Notes under the pieces: model-generated
Database searches by the model: none
What the model saw: the letters and a program-made list of their open reading frames with translations, nothing else
Told to the model about the DNA's origin: nothing
Origin: Actinomycetes bacterium
GTDB lineage: Bacteria; Actinomycetota; Actinomycetes; S36-B12
DNA length: 34,510 nucleotides
Assembly (NCBI GenBank): GCA_014190275.1
Contig: BJGE01000019.1
Location: forward strand, 1-34,510
Direction: 5' to 3'
In this document: positions 4,491-34,510 of the stretch, one piece after another
How the letters are laid out: each line of letters begins with the position of its first letter
Numbering within the stretch: the first letter of the stretch is position 1
Translations under genes and position numbers: made by a program

Positions 4491-7241
4491 TCAGCCCTTA
4501 AGACTGGGCGCCGTCAGTGTGATCTTCTTATTCTTCGAGATCACTTTGCCGGCCTTCATCAGCACCACCTGGTATTGACCGGAGCGGCTGGCGACATTGT
4601 TAAAGACGAGTCCGCGAGCTTTGTCGATAATGCCGGTGGCGACCTTCTTGCCCTTGAAGTAAAGGACGGCCTTGACCCCGGGGGCCAGTACCGGGGCCGG
4701 GAAGGTGACACTCATCTTGCCCAGTGCGGTGCCCGTGATGGTTGGCTTGCTGGCCGTGGCAGTGGCCGGGGTGGTCGCCGGCTGGTAGATGGTCACCTGG
4801 CCTGGGGCTGGTACCACGTTCGGCGCGCTCACGGTGTTGGCCGTATAGGTATAGCCACCGGGGGCGAAGGCGCGCCCGTTATCGACCGGCACGGCAACAT
4901 CGGCCGAGCCAAGTGCCGAGCCGGCGGGCACGACTACCTCTATATGCGCGTCATTGATGACCTTGTAGGCGGCGTTCTTGTTGCCGATCAACACCGCCGT
5001 TGCCGTGGAGAAGCCGGTGCCGATGAGGGAGATGGTGTTGCCACCGGCCAGTGGGCCCGAAGCCGGGCTCACCCCGAGGATCTCAAAGGCCGAGCCGCCG
5101 CCGCCGCCGCCACTTGATCCGCCACCACTTGATCCGCCGCCGCCGCTGGAGCCGCCGCCGCCGCTGGAGCCGCCGCCACTGGAGCCGCCACTACTTGGTG
5201 TGCCCGGGTCTACCTCGACGAAGGAGCGCACGTACGCCAGTGTGTTTGGGCTGCCGTTGGGGCCGGTGATTCGATCAACCGAAGCGCTTGCGGTGAGGGC
5301 GCTGGCCACCTGCGATGGTGGCGCGCTGGTGTTCAGGCCTAGATAAACGGCAGCCACCCCGGCCACATGCGGCGCCGCCATCGAGGTGCCGCTCATGGTT
5401 GCCGCTGCGGTGTTGCTAGTTATCCCGGCAGACAAAATGGTGACGCCGGGTCCGAAGATATCAACGCAGGAACCGAAGTTCGAGAAGTAAGCGATGTTGT
5501 CACTTTGATCTGAAGCTGCCACGGTAATAGCGCTGGCCTCCCGCGCTGGGCTGTAGTAGCAGGCATTGTCGGTTGAGTTGCCCGCGGCCACCACCACGGT
5601 GATGCCATCGGCGACGGCTGCGGCTACCGCATCGTCCATGGTCTTGCTGGCGCCACCACCAAGGCTCATGTTCAAGACCGCGGGTGTGCCGGCGACGTGG
5701 TCACCGATCGCCCAGTTGATGCCGTCCACCACGCCGGAGGTAGAGCCACTGCCGGAGCAGTCGAGAACCCGCACCGGCACGATGGTTGCTAATTTGGCGA
5801 CCCCGTAGGTGGTGCCGGCGACGGTGCCGGCGACGTGGGTGCCGTGACCGTGGCAGTCCTGGGGGGTGCCGCCGATTGCCGAGTAACCGGTGACAGTTCT
5901 GCCGGTGAACTCCGAGTGGCTGGTGAGCACCCCGGTGTCGACGATGTAGGCCTTCACCCCGGAGCCGGTACCCGCGGGGGTGAACTGGGTGTCCAGTGGC
6001 AGGGTGCGGCTGTCGAGTCGATCAAGGCCCCACGGCGCGCAGCCTTGGGTGCCGGCGGGCACCGGGGAGCCACAACTTGCGGTTGGTGTTGCCGAAGGTG
6101 ACGCCGATGGCGTCGGGGACGCGGTGGGCGCCACCCCGGGGCGGATGGCATACAGGTAACGGCCGGCTACCACCGGTGTCACACCTTCGCTGCCGCCCTT
6201 GAGTTGACCAGCTGCGCCGTCGATCAAGGTGCCGGGGACGGTCGACCTAGAGGCCTTCACGTAGGTGCCGGTTTGGTTCACCGGATTCGCGTAGCCGATA
6301 ACGAACTTGCCGTTGCTGCTCGATGTCGGTGCCAGCACTTTGTCGTAGTTGAAAACCAGGTCGACATCGCCACCGGTGCGGTTGAGGATAAGAAGCTGGA
6401 AGGAGAATTTCACGCCAGAGTTGCTGTATTCACCGACGTTCACCCAGTTGACGCAGTAGCCCGAGGCGCTACCGAACGTGGCGTTGCCGGCCGCACTGAG
6501 TGGGCCGTAGGTGACGGCGGAAGTTGCCGCATTGCGGGTGTCGATGTCGGTGAACAGCGGGAGGACAAGTGGGCGAGTGGTTGTGGTCAGATCGATGGTG
6601 CCCCAGTCGCTGAAGCCGCCGTGGCCGTCATCAAAGCTGACACCGCCGTTGTTGTTGACGTAGATGGAGTCATAAGAAGTGCCGAACCAGTTGGCGGAAA
6701 AGCCAAGGGACACCGGTGGTGAACTACCGTCGTCCATGCGTCCCATTGAAGTAGTGGTGCAACCACTATCAGAAAAAACCGCACCGGCGCTGATGCTGAC
6801 AACTTGATCGGCCTCAACACGTGACACCCCGGCAAGCTTCTCCAGCGCTGCGGCGTCCTCCGGGGTCAGGTCAGCAGCGAAACCATTGATCGCCTTATCG
6901 AAGGTATCGGTGACGGTGCCTCCGAGTGCGGTGATGCGGGCGGCAACAGCTGCCTCGGAGCCGTCGGCGACCGAAATCAAATAGGTGCGCTCACCCGCGG
7001 CCGGCGCCAAGATCGATGCCGATGCCGAAGCAGTTGGTGAGGGGTTGGCTGATTCACTTGATGCCGGGGTCGGCGCCAAGGTGCCAAGGCCGGGTGAGGG
7101 GGAAGGCACCGGCGCACTTGGATCCCCAGCGATATCTGCGGCGGCGGTGGTGGCCCACATCGAGGCGGCAACCACGCTGGCCGCGCACGTAAGCGCAACG
7201 GCAAGGCGCGTTGAGCCAACTCGCCCTGAGCCACGTGTCAC
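4491..7241 (-). CDS. Secreted subtilisin-family (S8) serine protease with inserted nidogen-like domain and IPT/TIG domain
   Basis: This 916-residue exported protease has a signal peptide (about 1-35), a Pro/Ser-rich linker, and an I9-type propeptide inhibitor at about 85-150. A nidogen-like domain at about 158-370 includes LGFSANWFGTSYDSIYVNNN. A proteinase K-like catalytic domain covers about 400-675, with Asp435 (VDTG), His466 (HGHGTHVAG), oxyanion Asn555 and Ser620 (GTSMAAPH). A Gly/Ser linker (685-717), an IPT/TIG fold (about 718-800) and a C-terminal beta-like domain follow. All catalytic residues are present, so it should be active. The start is GTG 7241 with AGGA 6 nt upstream. A nidogen-like domain between propeptide and protease is unusual and would be removed or retained depending on where maturation cuts. 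It is divergent from the HtrA gene. Confidence 0.93.
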   Translation of the reverse strand: MTRGSGRVGSTRLAVALTCAASVVAASMWATTAAADIAGDPSAPVPSPSPGLGTLAPTPASSESANPSPTASASASILAPAAGERTYLISVADGSEAAVAARITALGGTVTDTFDKAINGFAADLTPEDAAALEKLAGVSRVEADQVVSISAGAVFSDSGCTTTSMGRMDDGSSPPVSLGFSANWFGTSYDSIYVNNNGGVSFDDGHGGFSDWGTIDLTTTTRPLVLPLFTDIDTRNAATSAVTYGPLSAAGNATFGSASGYCVNWVNVGEYSNSGVKFSFQLLILNRTGGDVDLVFNYDKVLAPTSSSNGKFVIGYANPVNQTGTYVKASRSTVPGTLIDGAAGQLKGGSEGVTPVVAGRYLYAIRPGVAPTASPTPSASPSATPTASCGSPVPAGTQGCAPWGLDRLDSRTLPLDTQFTPAGTGSGVKAYIVDTGVLTSHSEFTGRTVTGYSAIGGTPQDCHGHGTHVAGTVAGTTYGVAKLATIVPVRVLDCSGSGSTSGVVDGINWAIGDHVAGTPAVLNMSLGGGASKTMDDAVAAAVADGITVVVAAGNSTDNACYYSPAREASAITVAASDQSDNIAYFSNFGSCVDIFGPGVTILSAGITSNTAAATMSGTSMAAPHVAGVAAVYLGLNTSAPPSQVASALTASASVDRITGPNGSPNTLAYVRSFVEVDPGTPSSGGSSGGGSSGGGGSSGGGGSSGGGSSGGGGGGSAFEILGVSPASGPLAGGNTISLIGTGFSTATAVLIGNKNAAYKVINDAHIEVVVPAGSALGSADVAVPVDNGRAFAPGGYTYTANTVSAPNVVPAPGQVTIYQPATTPATATASKPTITGTALGKMSVTFPAPVLAPGVKAVLYFKGKKVATGIIDKARGLVFNNVASRSGQYQVVLMKAGKVISKNKKITLTAPSLKG
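5091..5189 (-). repeat. Gly/Ser-coding repeat tract inside the subtilase gene
   Basis: Near-identical 12-18 bp units coding GGSS, GGGSS and GGGGSS make a flexible linker (residues 685-717) between the protease and IPT domains. Such tracts are prone to slippage. It resembles the Gly/Ser linker at the left edge of the window, though on the other strand and in another gene. Confidence 0.9.
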
Positions 7242-29211: not shown

Positions 29212-29599
29212 GCCGTTAGTAAAGCACTGATGCCCCGGGGTGCACCGGTTGGTGTGCCGCCTGTCACATCGACATTGGCGGCGTTCTTGGTGAATTTCCG
29301 GAAATGCAGCGAAACATTTGGCACACTGCTGCCAGTCGCCCTCCGGGCGGCCGGCCACTAGGCCGTCGAAGAGCCCGCGTGACAGCCCCCCAGCTGCGCG
29401 GGCTTTTCCTTGCCCGCATCACCACGCGCTCGCAGCTGAGAGTTCTAGCCAGGTTTGGGGTTGGCGCTAGGCCCCGAGTTCGGGGCTAGCCCCTCGTGTT
29501 TGGCGTTAACCTGTTAGGTACTTACGGTGTGACGGGATTCGTGTTTCGCTGGCGCCTACGGTCAATTCGCCAGCAACGTTATTGATAGGGAGAAGTTGG
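29212..29599. other. Structured intergenic region
   Basis: No open frame is convincing in this 388-bp stretch, but it is full of hairpins: CGCCC-TCC-GGGCG (29337-29349), CGGCC-ACTA-GGCCG (29352-29365), a terminator (29372-29407), GCTAG(G)CCCCG-AGTT-CGGGGCTAGC (29466-29490) and GCTGGCG/CGCCAGC (29548-29554 and 29568-29574). A plus-strand TTGACA sits at 29205-29210 with only a poor -10 box (TGATGC, 17-bp spacing). The first three hairpins could be a small RNA; the last two lie in the presumed leader of the peptide gene. Confidence 0.6.
29372..29407 (+). terminator. Rho-independent terminator with six-C loop
   Basis: AGCCCGCG (29372-29379) pairs with CGCGGGCT (29397-29404). Inside it CAGC pairs with GCTG around a loop that includes six consecutive C (29386-29391). 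TTTTCC follows. It points in the plus direction, yet no plus-strand gene lies between it and the epimerase remnant at 28160, so it may end a small RNA. Confidence 0.75.
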
Positions 29600-29773
29600 A
29601 TGACAAATATTGACATTTCAGCGCCGGTGAGTTCAGCTCCGACGCAGCGGCTCGCCCTTGGTCTTGGTTGGGTACGGCCGGCCGCAGGCGCTATCGGCGG
29701 CACCCAAAACCCCGCCGCAAATGAAAACTACGGATTCCATGGCACCTATTGCTTTGCGGGTAGTGACGAGTAG
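29600..29773 (+). CDS. Orphan 57-residue peptide of unknown function
   Basis: This short gene has an excellent ribosome site, AGGGAGAAG, 4 nt before ATG 29600. The product starts MTNIDISAPVSSAPTQRLAL, contains a Gly-Gly at residues 33-34, and ends in an Asn/Gly/aromatic segment (NENYGFHGTYCFAGSDE) with one Cys. It has no membrane helix or classical signal peptide and matches no family I know. It follows a strongly structured leader and precedes the aldehyde dehydrogenase gene by 88 bp. It could be a ribosomally made precursor peptide with a GG-type leader, a regulatory leader peptide, or a small metabolic accessory protein. No modification or export genes are adjacent. Confidence 0.62.
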   Translation: MTNIDISAPVSSAPTQRLALGLGWVRPAAGAIGGTQNPAANENYGFHGTYCFAGSDE

Positions 29774-29861
29774 GTAAAGCTGAGGGAAGGCAACCTAGGT
29801 AATTGACGGCAATATGCCTGCGAGGTAAGTGCATTGGCCAGTCATCTGGCAGGATCATTTG

Positions 29862-32535: not shown

Positions 32536-34086
32536 TTAGGCGCGCGACTCGAACATGCCGAGGAGGGCGGCGATTCCGAGAACTGATCGGGGTGAATATG
32601 CGGCCCGCCAAAGCCCACCGTGGTTTGCTCCCTGCACGAACAACTCCATCGGATTACTCAACGCGGTGCCCGGATTAGCTGTGGCTGCAGGATTGCGCAG
32701 ATCATGAACCAGGAGTGCAGCCATGAGTGCGGTCGACGTTGCCGGCTCGAACACCTCGATACCAAATTTATCCGCACCGGCGTAAGCCGCGGCCAGCGCC
32801 CGATTCTTGACCACCGATTGGGTGCGTGTGGCAGGCGCAAGATTAATTGAAACCGGCGTCCCCGCTGACCGCGCCACCAATGCGCGCCACCGCTGCATTC
32901 GTTTGGCCAGCGCGTAGTTCGCACCCTGCTGCGAGATGAGCGAGTCGTTAAGGCCGACTTCGGTGCCATCGGCGGCCACTAGGGTGTCCGGATAATTGGG
33001 CTCAAATTGCTTAAGGGCGCGCAGGGGGGTTTGCAGCAGCCCACTTAAGCCGCGTGAATCCCAGCGACGACGTGACTCAAGGACGGCAGCAAGTGGCACC
33101 ATGAAGGTGTCGGTAGGGGTGGCCAGATAGGCGAGGGTGATGTCATTGCGGCTACCGAGTAGATCGGCGACCACGGCATCGGCCGCCATCGACAGCAACG
33201 CATGCGTGGCTCCGTCGGCGTATGCGTAGGTGCCGAGCACGAAGGGCTGCTCGATTTCAGCGAGCCAGGTGCGGACTTCCGGAGTGCGGGTAAGTAAGTT
33301 CGCGCCGGCGACGTTCGCGATCACGACATCGTCCTCGGGGTGCACGAGCCCATCCAGGACTAGTGGTGGGTGGCCATCAGCATCAAACTCGATCGGGATT
33401 CGAACGCTGCCCGCCGTGCTGCGCGTGATGTCGATCAGTCGCTGCCAGATTGCTGGCCGCCTAAGGTCGATGGCGTGCACGGTGGCACCCCAGCGCAGCA
33501 GTGATCTGGTCGGGCCCATTTCGGCCCCGGCACCGAGTAACGCGATATCCACCCCGCGCAGATCAAGCCAGTCTGGATTGTCGAGCACCAGGTGGATTGC
33601 CGCCCCGAAACTCGGTTCGGCTATGCCATCGTCAACCCACTTGTCGACTTGGTCGCGCAGGTGCCGGCCGAACAAGCGCTTACCCCGGTATGGCACGGAT
33701 AGATCCGAGTCCAGTTGGGCGTTGCCTTGGATCTGAACAGAGCCGAAGCCGGGTGCGGTAAATGCCCCCATGGCCGCATCGACACTTAGTTCTTGGCCGT
33801 CGCGGCCAAATCGAAAGCGCCGGTGCGCCGACGCTAGACCGTCGCGTGAGATCTGCAGTGCGGCATCTGGTGTCGCGGTGGCGGCCGCGACGATATCTCG
33901 GATTGGGCGAAGGTAGCCAGCACGCCAGTCCTTGGTGTGCTCGATGCGATCGGCGAGTTCTGGCGCTACGCCGCGGGCACAATCGGCGAAGATGGCGCGC
34001 CCGGTGGCGCTGGTGCTGCGTTTGCCATCACCGCCCGAAGGGAAATGGACCCCATCGGGCATCGTGTCGTCTGTGTTCGCGGGCAC
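32536..34086 (-). CDS. Conserved hypothetical protein with Rossmann-like segment
   Basis: This 516-residue cytosolic protein is of a family I cannot name. It has a nucleotide-binding-like segment, VDIALLGAGAEMGPTRSLLR, followed by an acidic strand end (HAIDLRRPAIW), as in a Rossmann fold. Later segments are YADGATHALLSMAADAV, LATPTDTFMVPLAAVLESR and a C-terminal ELFVQGANHGGLWRAAYSPR. No signal peptide. Several starts are possible; I choose GTG 34086 because TATTCT stands 6 nt upstream, the leaderless spacing seen elsewhere here. ATG 34062 would shorten it by eight residues, and ATG 34134 would overlap the upstream gene. It lies just downstream of a PLP decarboxylase gene on the same strand. 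Confidence 0.72.
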   Translation of the reverse strand: MPANTDDTMPDGVHFPSGGDGKRSTSATGRAIFADCARGVAPELADRIEHTKDWRAGYLRPIRDIVAAATATPDAALQISRDGLASAHRRFRFGRDGQELSVDAAMGAFTAPGFGSVQIQGNAQLDSDLSVPYRGKRLFGRHLRDQVDKWVDDGIAEPSFGAAIHLVLDNPDWLDLRGVDIALLGAGAEMGPTRSLLRWGATVHAIDLRRPAIWQRLIDITRSTAGSVRIPIEFDADGHPPLVLDGLVHPEDDVVIANVAGANLLTRTPEVRTWLAEIEQPFVLGTYAYADGATHALLSMAADAVVADLLGSRNDITLAYLATPTDTFMVPLAAVLESRRRWDSRGLSGLLQTPLRALKQFEPNYPDTLVAADGTEVGLNDSLISQQGANYALAKRMQRWRALVARSAGTPVSINLAPATRTQSVVKNRALAAAYAGADKFGIEVFEPATSTALMAALLVHDLRNPAATANPGTALSNPMELFVQGANHGGLWRAAYSPRSVLGIAALLGMFESRA

Positions 34087-34092
34087 CAGTGC

Positions 34093-34098
34093 AGAATA
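34093..34098 (-). promoter_or_regulatory. -10 box with leaderless spacing for the conserved hypothetical
   Basis: Minus-strand TATTCT, then 6 nt, then GTG 34086. It lies just past the stop codon of the decarboxylase gene. No matching -35 box is evident. Confidence 0.45.
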
Positions 34099-34099
34099 C

Positions 34100-34510
34100 C
34101 TATTTCTTTGACGAGTGAAGGCTCGGGTCTTCATGCGGGTCAAGATTGCCCAGCTCGGCTGCGATCGCAAGGGTTATGTCGACGTCAGTCAGAGTGGTTC
34201 GAAAATTAGTAAAGCACGGACGAAGCCACACCTGACCATCGATTGTTGCGGGTGAGATGTAGACGCGCCCGTCCTGCTGCATACTCGAGCAAAGGTCAAG
34301 GTTGTGGGCGTCCAAATCGGTGCAACCGGGTGGCACATGGCGAAACGGCACGATTGACAACTGCGGCGGCGCGGCCAGAACCTCGAATTCCGGATGCGCG
34401 GCGGCGGCCCGATAAAGGTGTTGTGCTTGCTCGCAATTCCCCGCAATGGCCTCGCGGAAGGCGTGGGCACCGTGGACGCGCAATGCCAACCAAAGTTTCA
34501 AGGCCCTAAG
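34100..34510 (-). CDS. Group II PLP-dependent decarboxylase (5' partial)
   Basis: The C-terminal 136 residues are visible; the gene continues past the right edge. ALKLWLALRVHGAHAFREAI, HPEFEVLAAPPQLSIVPFRH, the GRVYISPATIDGQVWLRPC segment and NFRTT are the standard C-terminal signature of aromatic-L-amino-acid/tyrosine/glutamate-type decarboxylases, fold type I. The PLP-binding Lys lies outside the window. These enzymes remove the carboxyl group from an amino acid to give an amine; which amino acid cannot be told from this part. The TTG at 34501 is internal and not the start. Confidence 0.9.
   Translation of the reverse strand, partial: LRALKLWLALRVHGAHAFREAIAGNCEQAQHLYRAAAAHPEFEVLAAPPQLSIVPFRHVPPGCTDLDAHNLDLCSSMQQDGRVYISPATIDGQVWLRPCFTNFRTTLTDVDITLAIAAELGNLDPHEDPSLHSSKK

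Follow-up and report, generated by a model that had tools for sequence, protein, structure and literature searches.

The 34,510-nucleotide stretch of DNA analysed here (the window) carries a 57-codon gene beside genes for an aldehyde dehydrogenase and an FAD oxidase. From the letters of the window, an earlier sequence-only reading had taken the product for an orphan peptide, possibly composed of a leader and a core. This raises the question of what the gene encodes and which enzymes would act on its product. Our analysis makes it very likely that the gene encodes the precursor (an E-peptide-like substrate) of a cyanobactin-type RiPP pathway.

The gene and its family

The ORF was verified at 29600–29773 on the forward strand, running from ATG to TAG, and its product is MTNIDISAPVSSAPTQRLALGLGWVRPAAGAIGGTQNPAANENYGFHGTYCFAGSDE. 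Gly-Gly at residues 33–34 and a lone Cys at residue 51, both pointed out in the sequence-only reading, were confirmed together with the coordinates. The features of the locus are:

29587–29595 (+): Shine-Dalgarno sequence AGGGAGAAG, 4 nt upstream of the ATG
29600–29773 (+): predicted precursor peptide gene, 57 aa and stop, with a patE-like layout (from homologous copies and dN/dS)
29600–29716 (+): leader, residues 1–39, MTNIDISAPVSSAPTQRLALGLGWVRPAAGAIGGTQNPA; R17, L20, R26 and P27 conserved in the family (from column conservation)
29717–29752 (+): predicted core, residues 40–51, ANENYGFHGTYC; boundary placed by an entropy jump and PatA/PatG site logic
29753–29770 (+): conserved follower or tail FAGSDE, residues 52–57, with a predicted PatG-type protease site; FEGNEE in most copies
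29424–29815 (+): unit carrying the gene, with approximate edges; site empty in G001, G002, G004 and G009

The peptide gave zero matches to Pfam and NCBIfam models, and a Nif11-type leader was accordingly not recognised. A 544-aa ORF of the window (32536–34170, reverse strand) likewise had no Pfam or NCBIfam match.

The gene proved genuine, evolves under purifying selection and was found not to be an orphan. A search for relatives showed 27 homologues in the window's own genome (28 copies at a looser threshold) and 3–45 in each of nine other genomes of the genus; at the former threshold no homologues were found in the sampled other genera. With a profile search that included distant members, 6–46 genes per genome and approximately 240 over the ten genus genomes were detected, and 17 of the 85 genomes in the taxonomic family contained the precursor family. 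Syntenic orthologues of the window copy were found in two of the genomes (G008 and G003) with a nearly identical core, and dN/dS between the syntenic orthologues was 0.17–0.25, calculated from few sites (4–14 synonymous and 2–12 non-synonymous differences). The 27–28 homologues in the same genome, the copies in every genus genome and the dN/dS values thus place the gene far beyond chance. Of the refuting conditions set in the sequence-only reading, the two that were checked, conservation in relatives and the rates of synonymous and non-synonymous change, came out in favour of the gene.

The host genus is one freshwater actinobacterial genus related to Ca. Nanopelagicales. The named records are metagenome-assembled genomes (MAGs) from lakes, including 'Candidatus Nanopelagicales' from Baikal, and the remaining sample codes seem to denote Lake Loclat and the Rimov reservoir. 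The precursor family also occurs in public MAG records from lakes that bear the title Bifidobacterium breve (L099, L102, L106, L111, L128, and others) and are probably mislabelled.

From the loci fetched, 165 distinct complete genes, a few damaged ones included, were gathered, and 136 of them could be parsed as leader, core, Cys and tail, with 125 different cores. The leader consensus was MPSxDVxxPVSSAPxDRLALGVGWVRPGxAGIGGTLNPS, with R17, R26 and P27 invariant in 134 aligned copies, and the tail was mostly FEGNEE, with FAG variants. Cores are approximately 6–20 residues long and almost always end in Cys. Column entropy was 1.5 bits at the Ser of NPS, jumped to 3.6 bits one residue further on, stayed high across the core and dropped to 0 where Cys meets Phe. 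At the nucleotide level, copies shared a median identity of 0.77 for the leader, 0.90 for the tail and 0.53 for the core, compared to 0.50 for shuffled cores. The core region is thus hypervariable family-wide, yet it is kept among the three syntenic orthologues. The residue preceding the F-tail (P1) was Cys in 146, Pro in three, Thr in two and Arg in one of 152 copies. A leader, a hypervariable core and flanking recognition sites, as in cyanobactin precursors, are all present. The idea of a leader and core precursor proposed earlier was borne out, except that the 23-residue core is replaced by one of approximately 12 residues plus a conserved C-terminal follower, and that the boundary proposed at Gly-Gly is moved to the entropy jump, with a predicted position after Asn-Pro-Ala39 (Asn-Pro-Ser in most copies).

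Frameshifted or truncated copies lacking the tail were seen at L030, L138, L144, L165 and L169, showing that there are pseudogenes among the dispersed precursors.

Enzymes encoded on another contig

The constant-variable-Cys-constant layout resembles that of cyanobactin precursors, and cyanobactin enzymes were therefore sought; the pathway was predicted from the precursor layout and the enzymes were searched for afterwards. Strong matches to PatA/PatG-family proteases (TIGR03895) were found in eight of the ten genus genomes and a YcaO match in nine of the ten. The two genomes without a PatA match are 57% and 79% complete. Within the clusters read, proteases and YcaO were located within approximately 10 kb of each other. 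The sequence-only reading had noted that no modification enzyme or exporter is adjacent; both were found to be encoded on another contig of the same genome (G000:C34):

L071 on contig C34: enzyme cluster of the window's genome, ten ORFs
L071:6459–7718 (−): sulfotransferase fused to a PqqD/RRE-like domain, candidate RiPP-sulfating enzyme
L071:7672–8466 (−): conserved protein of 264 aa, unmatched in Pfam and NCBIfam, present wherever the sulfotransferase fusion occurs

Besides these two proteins, the cluster contains two DHA2 MFS transporters, a PatA-like and a PatG-like protease, a YcaO protein that includes a TOMM leader-binding domain, a ThcOx/SagB oxidase and two further proteins, one of 140 aa and one of the DUF4190 type. 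The first protease scored 730 bits against TIGR03895 (cut-off 421), contains the Asp/His/Ser motifs and has PatA as its closest solved structure (3zxx/4h6w, E 5e-84), as expected of a PatA-type N-terminal protease. The second showed PatA (2e-60) and the PatG macrocyclase (1e-56) as closest solved structures and carries PatG_D, PatG_C and a PatG-like S8 domain, the composition of a protease G. The YcaO protein matched LynD (4v1t, 7e-147) and TruD (3e-143) over its full length and, with its leader-binding domain, belongs to the azoline-forming heterocyclases of the PatD/LynD/TruD type. The oxidase (PF22767, ThcOx; closest structure CyaGox, 2e-45) corresponds to the optional azoline oxidase of such clusters. 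The sulfotransferase was found to be similar to Teg14/Teg12 and to cytosolic sulfotransferases, with similarity to TbiB1 in its C-terminal part. No PatF and no LanM were present among the ten ORFs, and no methyl- or prenyltransferase was found in the cluster. AlphaFold models of the 264-aa protein (pLDDT 44.5) and the PatG-like protease (48.2) did not reach the quality that a fold search requires. The cluster was kept in the seven genus genomes compared, with YcaO proteins 85–92% identical to that of the window's genome.

Within the window, a 916-aa subtilase (4491–7241, reverse strand) resembles the PatA/PatG family only weakly (7.8e-12); it has counterparts in other genomes of the genus and is probably an ordinary subtilase.

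The cluster loci that were read in the window's genus gave no precursor. Outside the genus, precursors lie within the enzyme cluster in five genomes: eight were detected by profile in the G012 stretch, seven in G503 and six in G021, and one each beside PatA in G485 and G498. The sulfotransferase-PqqD fusion and the 264-aa protein were present in the window's genus, G485 and G498, and were not detected in the clusters of G012, G503 and G021. Over 85 genomes of the taxonomic family, PatA and precursors occurred together in 14, PatA only in three (G454, G029 and G499), precursors only in three (G002, G007 and G483, incomplete MAGs that are 57–79% complete) and neither in 65 (Fisher p = 1e-10, a value that overstates independence since the genomes are related). 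In the order, strong PatA-family matches came from this taxonomic family only (17 of 166 genomes). PatG_C was found in four of 396 Actinomycetota genomes, the window's genome included, and no homologues of this YcaO and oxidase were detectable nearby in the other three.

The clusters of G485 and G498 (L192 and L193), which are assigned to two other genera, encode YcaO, PatA and PatG-like proteins 83–87% identical to those of the window's genus, and their precursors closely resemble those of that genus as well, reflecting either gene transfer or misbinning. A PatA/PatG protease pair of another kind, accompanied in L198 by an MFS gene, is present in G029 (L198) and also in G454 and G499; beside this pair neither a YcaO of this type nor a recognisable precursor was detected, and a second precursor type sought beside the G029 pair was not found.

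Based on these comparisons, the distant cluster very probably acts on all of the approximately 28 dispersed copies and makes a modified-peptide library of them. The leader would recruit the YcaO cyclodehydratase of the LynD/TruD type, whose gene lies elsewhere in the genome, and this enzyme would turn the C-terminal Cys of the core, and perhaps Thr, into an azoline that the ThcOx-type oxidase could then aromatise. The PatA-type subtilase is predicted to cut after NPA or NPS; PatA-type enzymes are described to cut after G(L/V)E(A/P)S (PMC10885120), and the family motif at the corresponding position, G-T-L-N-P-S, has a similar ending and is not canonical. The PatG-related subtilase would cut between Cys51 and FAGSDE and would thereby either close the core to a macrocycle or set it free in linear form. 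PatGmac requires a thiazoline or Pro at P1 (PMC10043927), and Cys, Pro or Thr at P1 in 151 of 152 copies is close to this published requirement. The sulfotransferase-PqqD fusion may sulfate Tyr, Ser or Thr, and the DHA2-type MFS proteins would export the product. Since a single enzyme cluster would serve all the dispersed substrates, the cell would encode a peptide library. As to the biological role, our guess is a secreted, rapidly diversifying repertoire directed toward competitors or metals.

Dispersal of the copies and rival readings

The sequence-only reading had proposed checking whether the peptide always precedes the same two enzymes. The same neighbours were found in three species, with the remaining copies located elsewhere in the genome. 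In four sister genomes (G001, G002, G004 and G009) the dehydrogenase gene directly follows a GFO/IDH oxidoreductase gene with no peptide between them, and the gene of the window sits in a stretch of approximately 0.35–0.4 kb that is missing there at the same site. The stretch is either an insertion or was lost in these four genomes. Similarity between dispersed copies seldom extends far past the gene, so that the units are usually gene-sized, and no transposon or terminal repeats were seen around the copies. Enrichment at contig ends was weak (8 of 28 copies within 1.5 kb, compared to approximately 17% expected). A phage origin was rejected, as no viral contig encodes a relative. Several pairs of copies showed 0.93–1.00 nucleotide identity in the core and only 0.75–0.86 in the leader, and in other pairs the flanks were similar and the cores different. 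Because cores are shared over divergent leaders, the core/tail part appears to have been exchanged between copies by recombination, which gives the best account of these alignments.

These observations bear on what the peptide could be other than a cyanobactin-type precursor. The shared neighbours in three species would fit a joint function of the peptide with the aldehyde dehydrogenase and FAD oxidase encoded next to it, a reading to which we give almost no credence: the stretch is missing at that site in the four sister genomes, so that the enzyme pair is considered unrelated, and a functional link to it was rejected. Alternatively, the copies could form a selfish or structural repeat, or the peptide could serve unmodified as a regulator or signal, with the cluster acting on something else. 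The high copy number, the dispersion, the empty sites and the damaged copies would agree with this reading; it is nevertheless very unlikely in view of the purifying selection, the co-occurrence with PatA, the in-cluster copies in five genomes, the restriction at P1 and the gene-sized similarity without mobile-element ends. The Gly-Gly of the window copy, with Gly at the two positions in 88% and 85% of the family, could instead mark a precursor of the double-glycine kind, such as that of a lanthipeptide, with a C39 peptidase-ABC exporter cutting after Gly34. This is most improbable, since the variable region begins after NPS or NPA and not after Gly-Gly, a conserved follower is unusual for such leaders, and the four tandem in-cluster precursors of G012 that were read directly lack Gly-Gly at the leader position.

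A further alternative concerns the end product and competes with the macrocycle version of the cyanobactin-type pathway only: the same enzymes would yield a product that stays linear and carries a thiazole at its C-terminus, like aeruginosamides and viridisamide, with the second protease hydrolysing rather than cyclising. In all 12 clusters the PatG-like proteases have approximately 7–9 residues where PatG has approximately 43, and thus lack the macrocyclisation insert, a helix-turn-helix of two helices and approximately 40 residues that in PatG binds AYDG and shields the acyl-enzyme (PMC10043927, PMC4663559). Cyclisation is therefore doubtful; the missing insert does not bear on the type of pathway, since linear cyanobactins exist. 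Against hydrolysis, the protease retains PatG-like sequence features that are absent from the PatA alignment, IIHCAFCHPSQT, together with the PatG D and C domains, and P1 is nearly restricted to Cys, Pro or Thr, as PatG requires. Moreover, the insert is reported to be variable in length and sequence (PMC4663559), and the reviewed linear cyanobactins accompany a methyl- or prenyltransferase, neither of which is in the cluster. We regard a linear product as a serious possibility, with a chance only a little short of even.

Comparison with known systems

The cyanobactin-type pathway described here differs from known ones in host, genomic organisation and enzyme set. In common with the pathways of patellamide (pat), trunkamide (tru), aestuaramide (lyn) and cyanothecamide (thc) are the PatA/PatG-type subtilases with PatG_D and PatG_C, the LynD/TruD-type YcaO and the ThcOx oxidase, as well as a leader, a hypervariable core and a C-terminal recognition tail with Cys, Pro or Thr at P1. 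Cyanobactin clusters have been described as restricted to cyanobacteria (PMC4663559; see also PMC4603692), whereas the host here is actinobacterial; no report of such clusters from Actinomycetota was found in the open-licence literature. A complete YcaO/PatA/PatG-type/ThcOx gene set is present in uncultured freshwater actinobacteria. Instead of the canonical motifs G(L/V)E(A/P)S and AYDG (PMC10885120), the family has GTLNPS and FEGNEE or FAGSDE; variant flanks, e.g. SNCIG, are also known among cyanobactins (PMC4663559). In contrast to known clusters, this one has no PatF among its ten ORFs and a PatG-like protease without the insert, and it contains in addition the sulfotransferase-PqqD fusion, a candidate sulfating RiPP enzyme. 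With 6–46 dispersed precursor genes per genome, the substrate repertoire is several-fold above the reviewed maximum of 10 precursors per cyanobactin cluster (PMC4663559).

Since the protease lacks the capping insert, a linear, thiazole-ended release like that of the linear cyanobactins (aeruginosamides, viridisamide A and muscoride) is plausible in this system. Aeruginosamides and viridisamide consist of 3–5 residues and involve a prenyl- or methyltransferase (PMC4663559), whereas the cores here are longer, as given above, and the cluster has neither enzyme. The more than 100 natural cores provide material for defining the tolerance of a PatG-type protease without the insert. Dozens of dispersed precursors, cores shuffled between leaders and one cluster combining a capless PatG, a YcaO and a sulfotransferase might together make an undescribed class of sulfated azol(in)e peptides with species-specific repertoires, which we propose tentatively and consider somewhat improbable.

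In its use of one promiscuous enzyme system on scattered substrates with a constant leader and a hypervariable core, the system resembles the prochlorosins and synechococsins (ProcA/ProcM, SyncA/SyncM), for which 29 scattered substrates are reported in MIT9313 and 79–83 in some Synechococcus (PMC10783134). Those are built on a LanM lanthionine synthetase and a Nif11 leader, whereas a C-terminal follower and a subtilase pair are found here, so that the same design of one enzyme set and many scattered substrates is based on different chemistry. Why bacteria maintain peptide libraries thereby becomes testable in a second, unrelated system.
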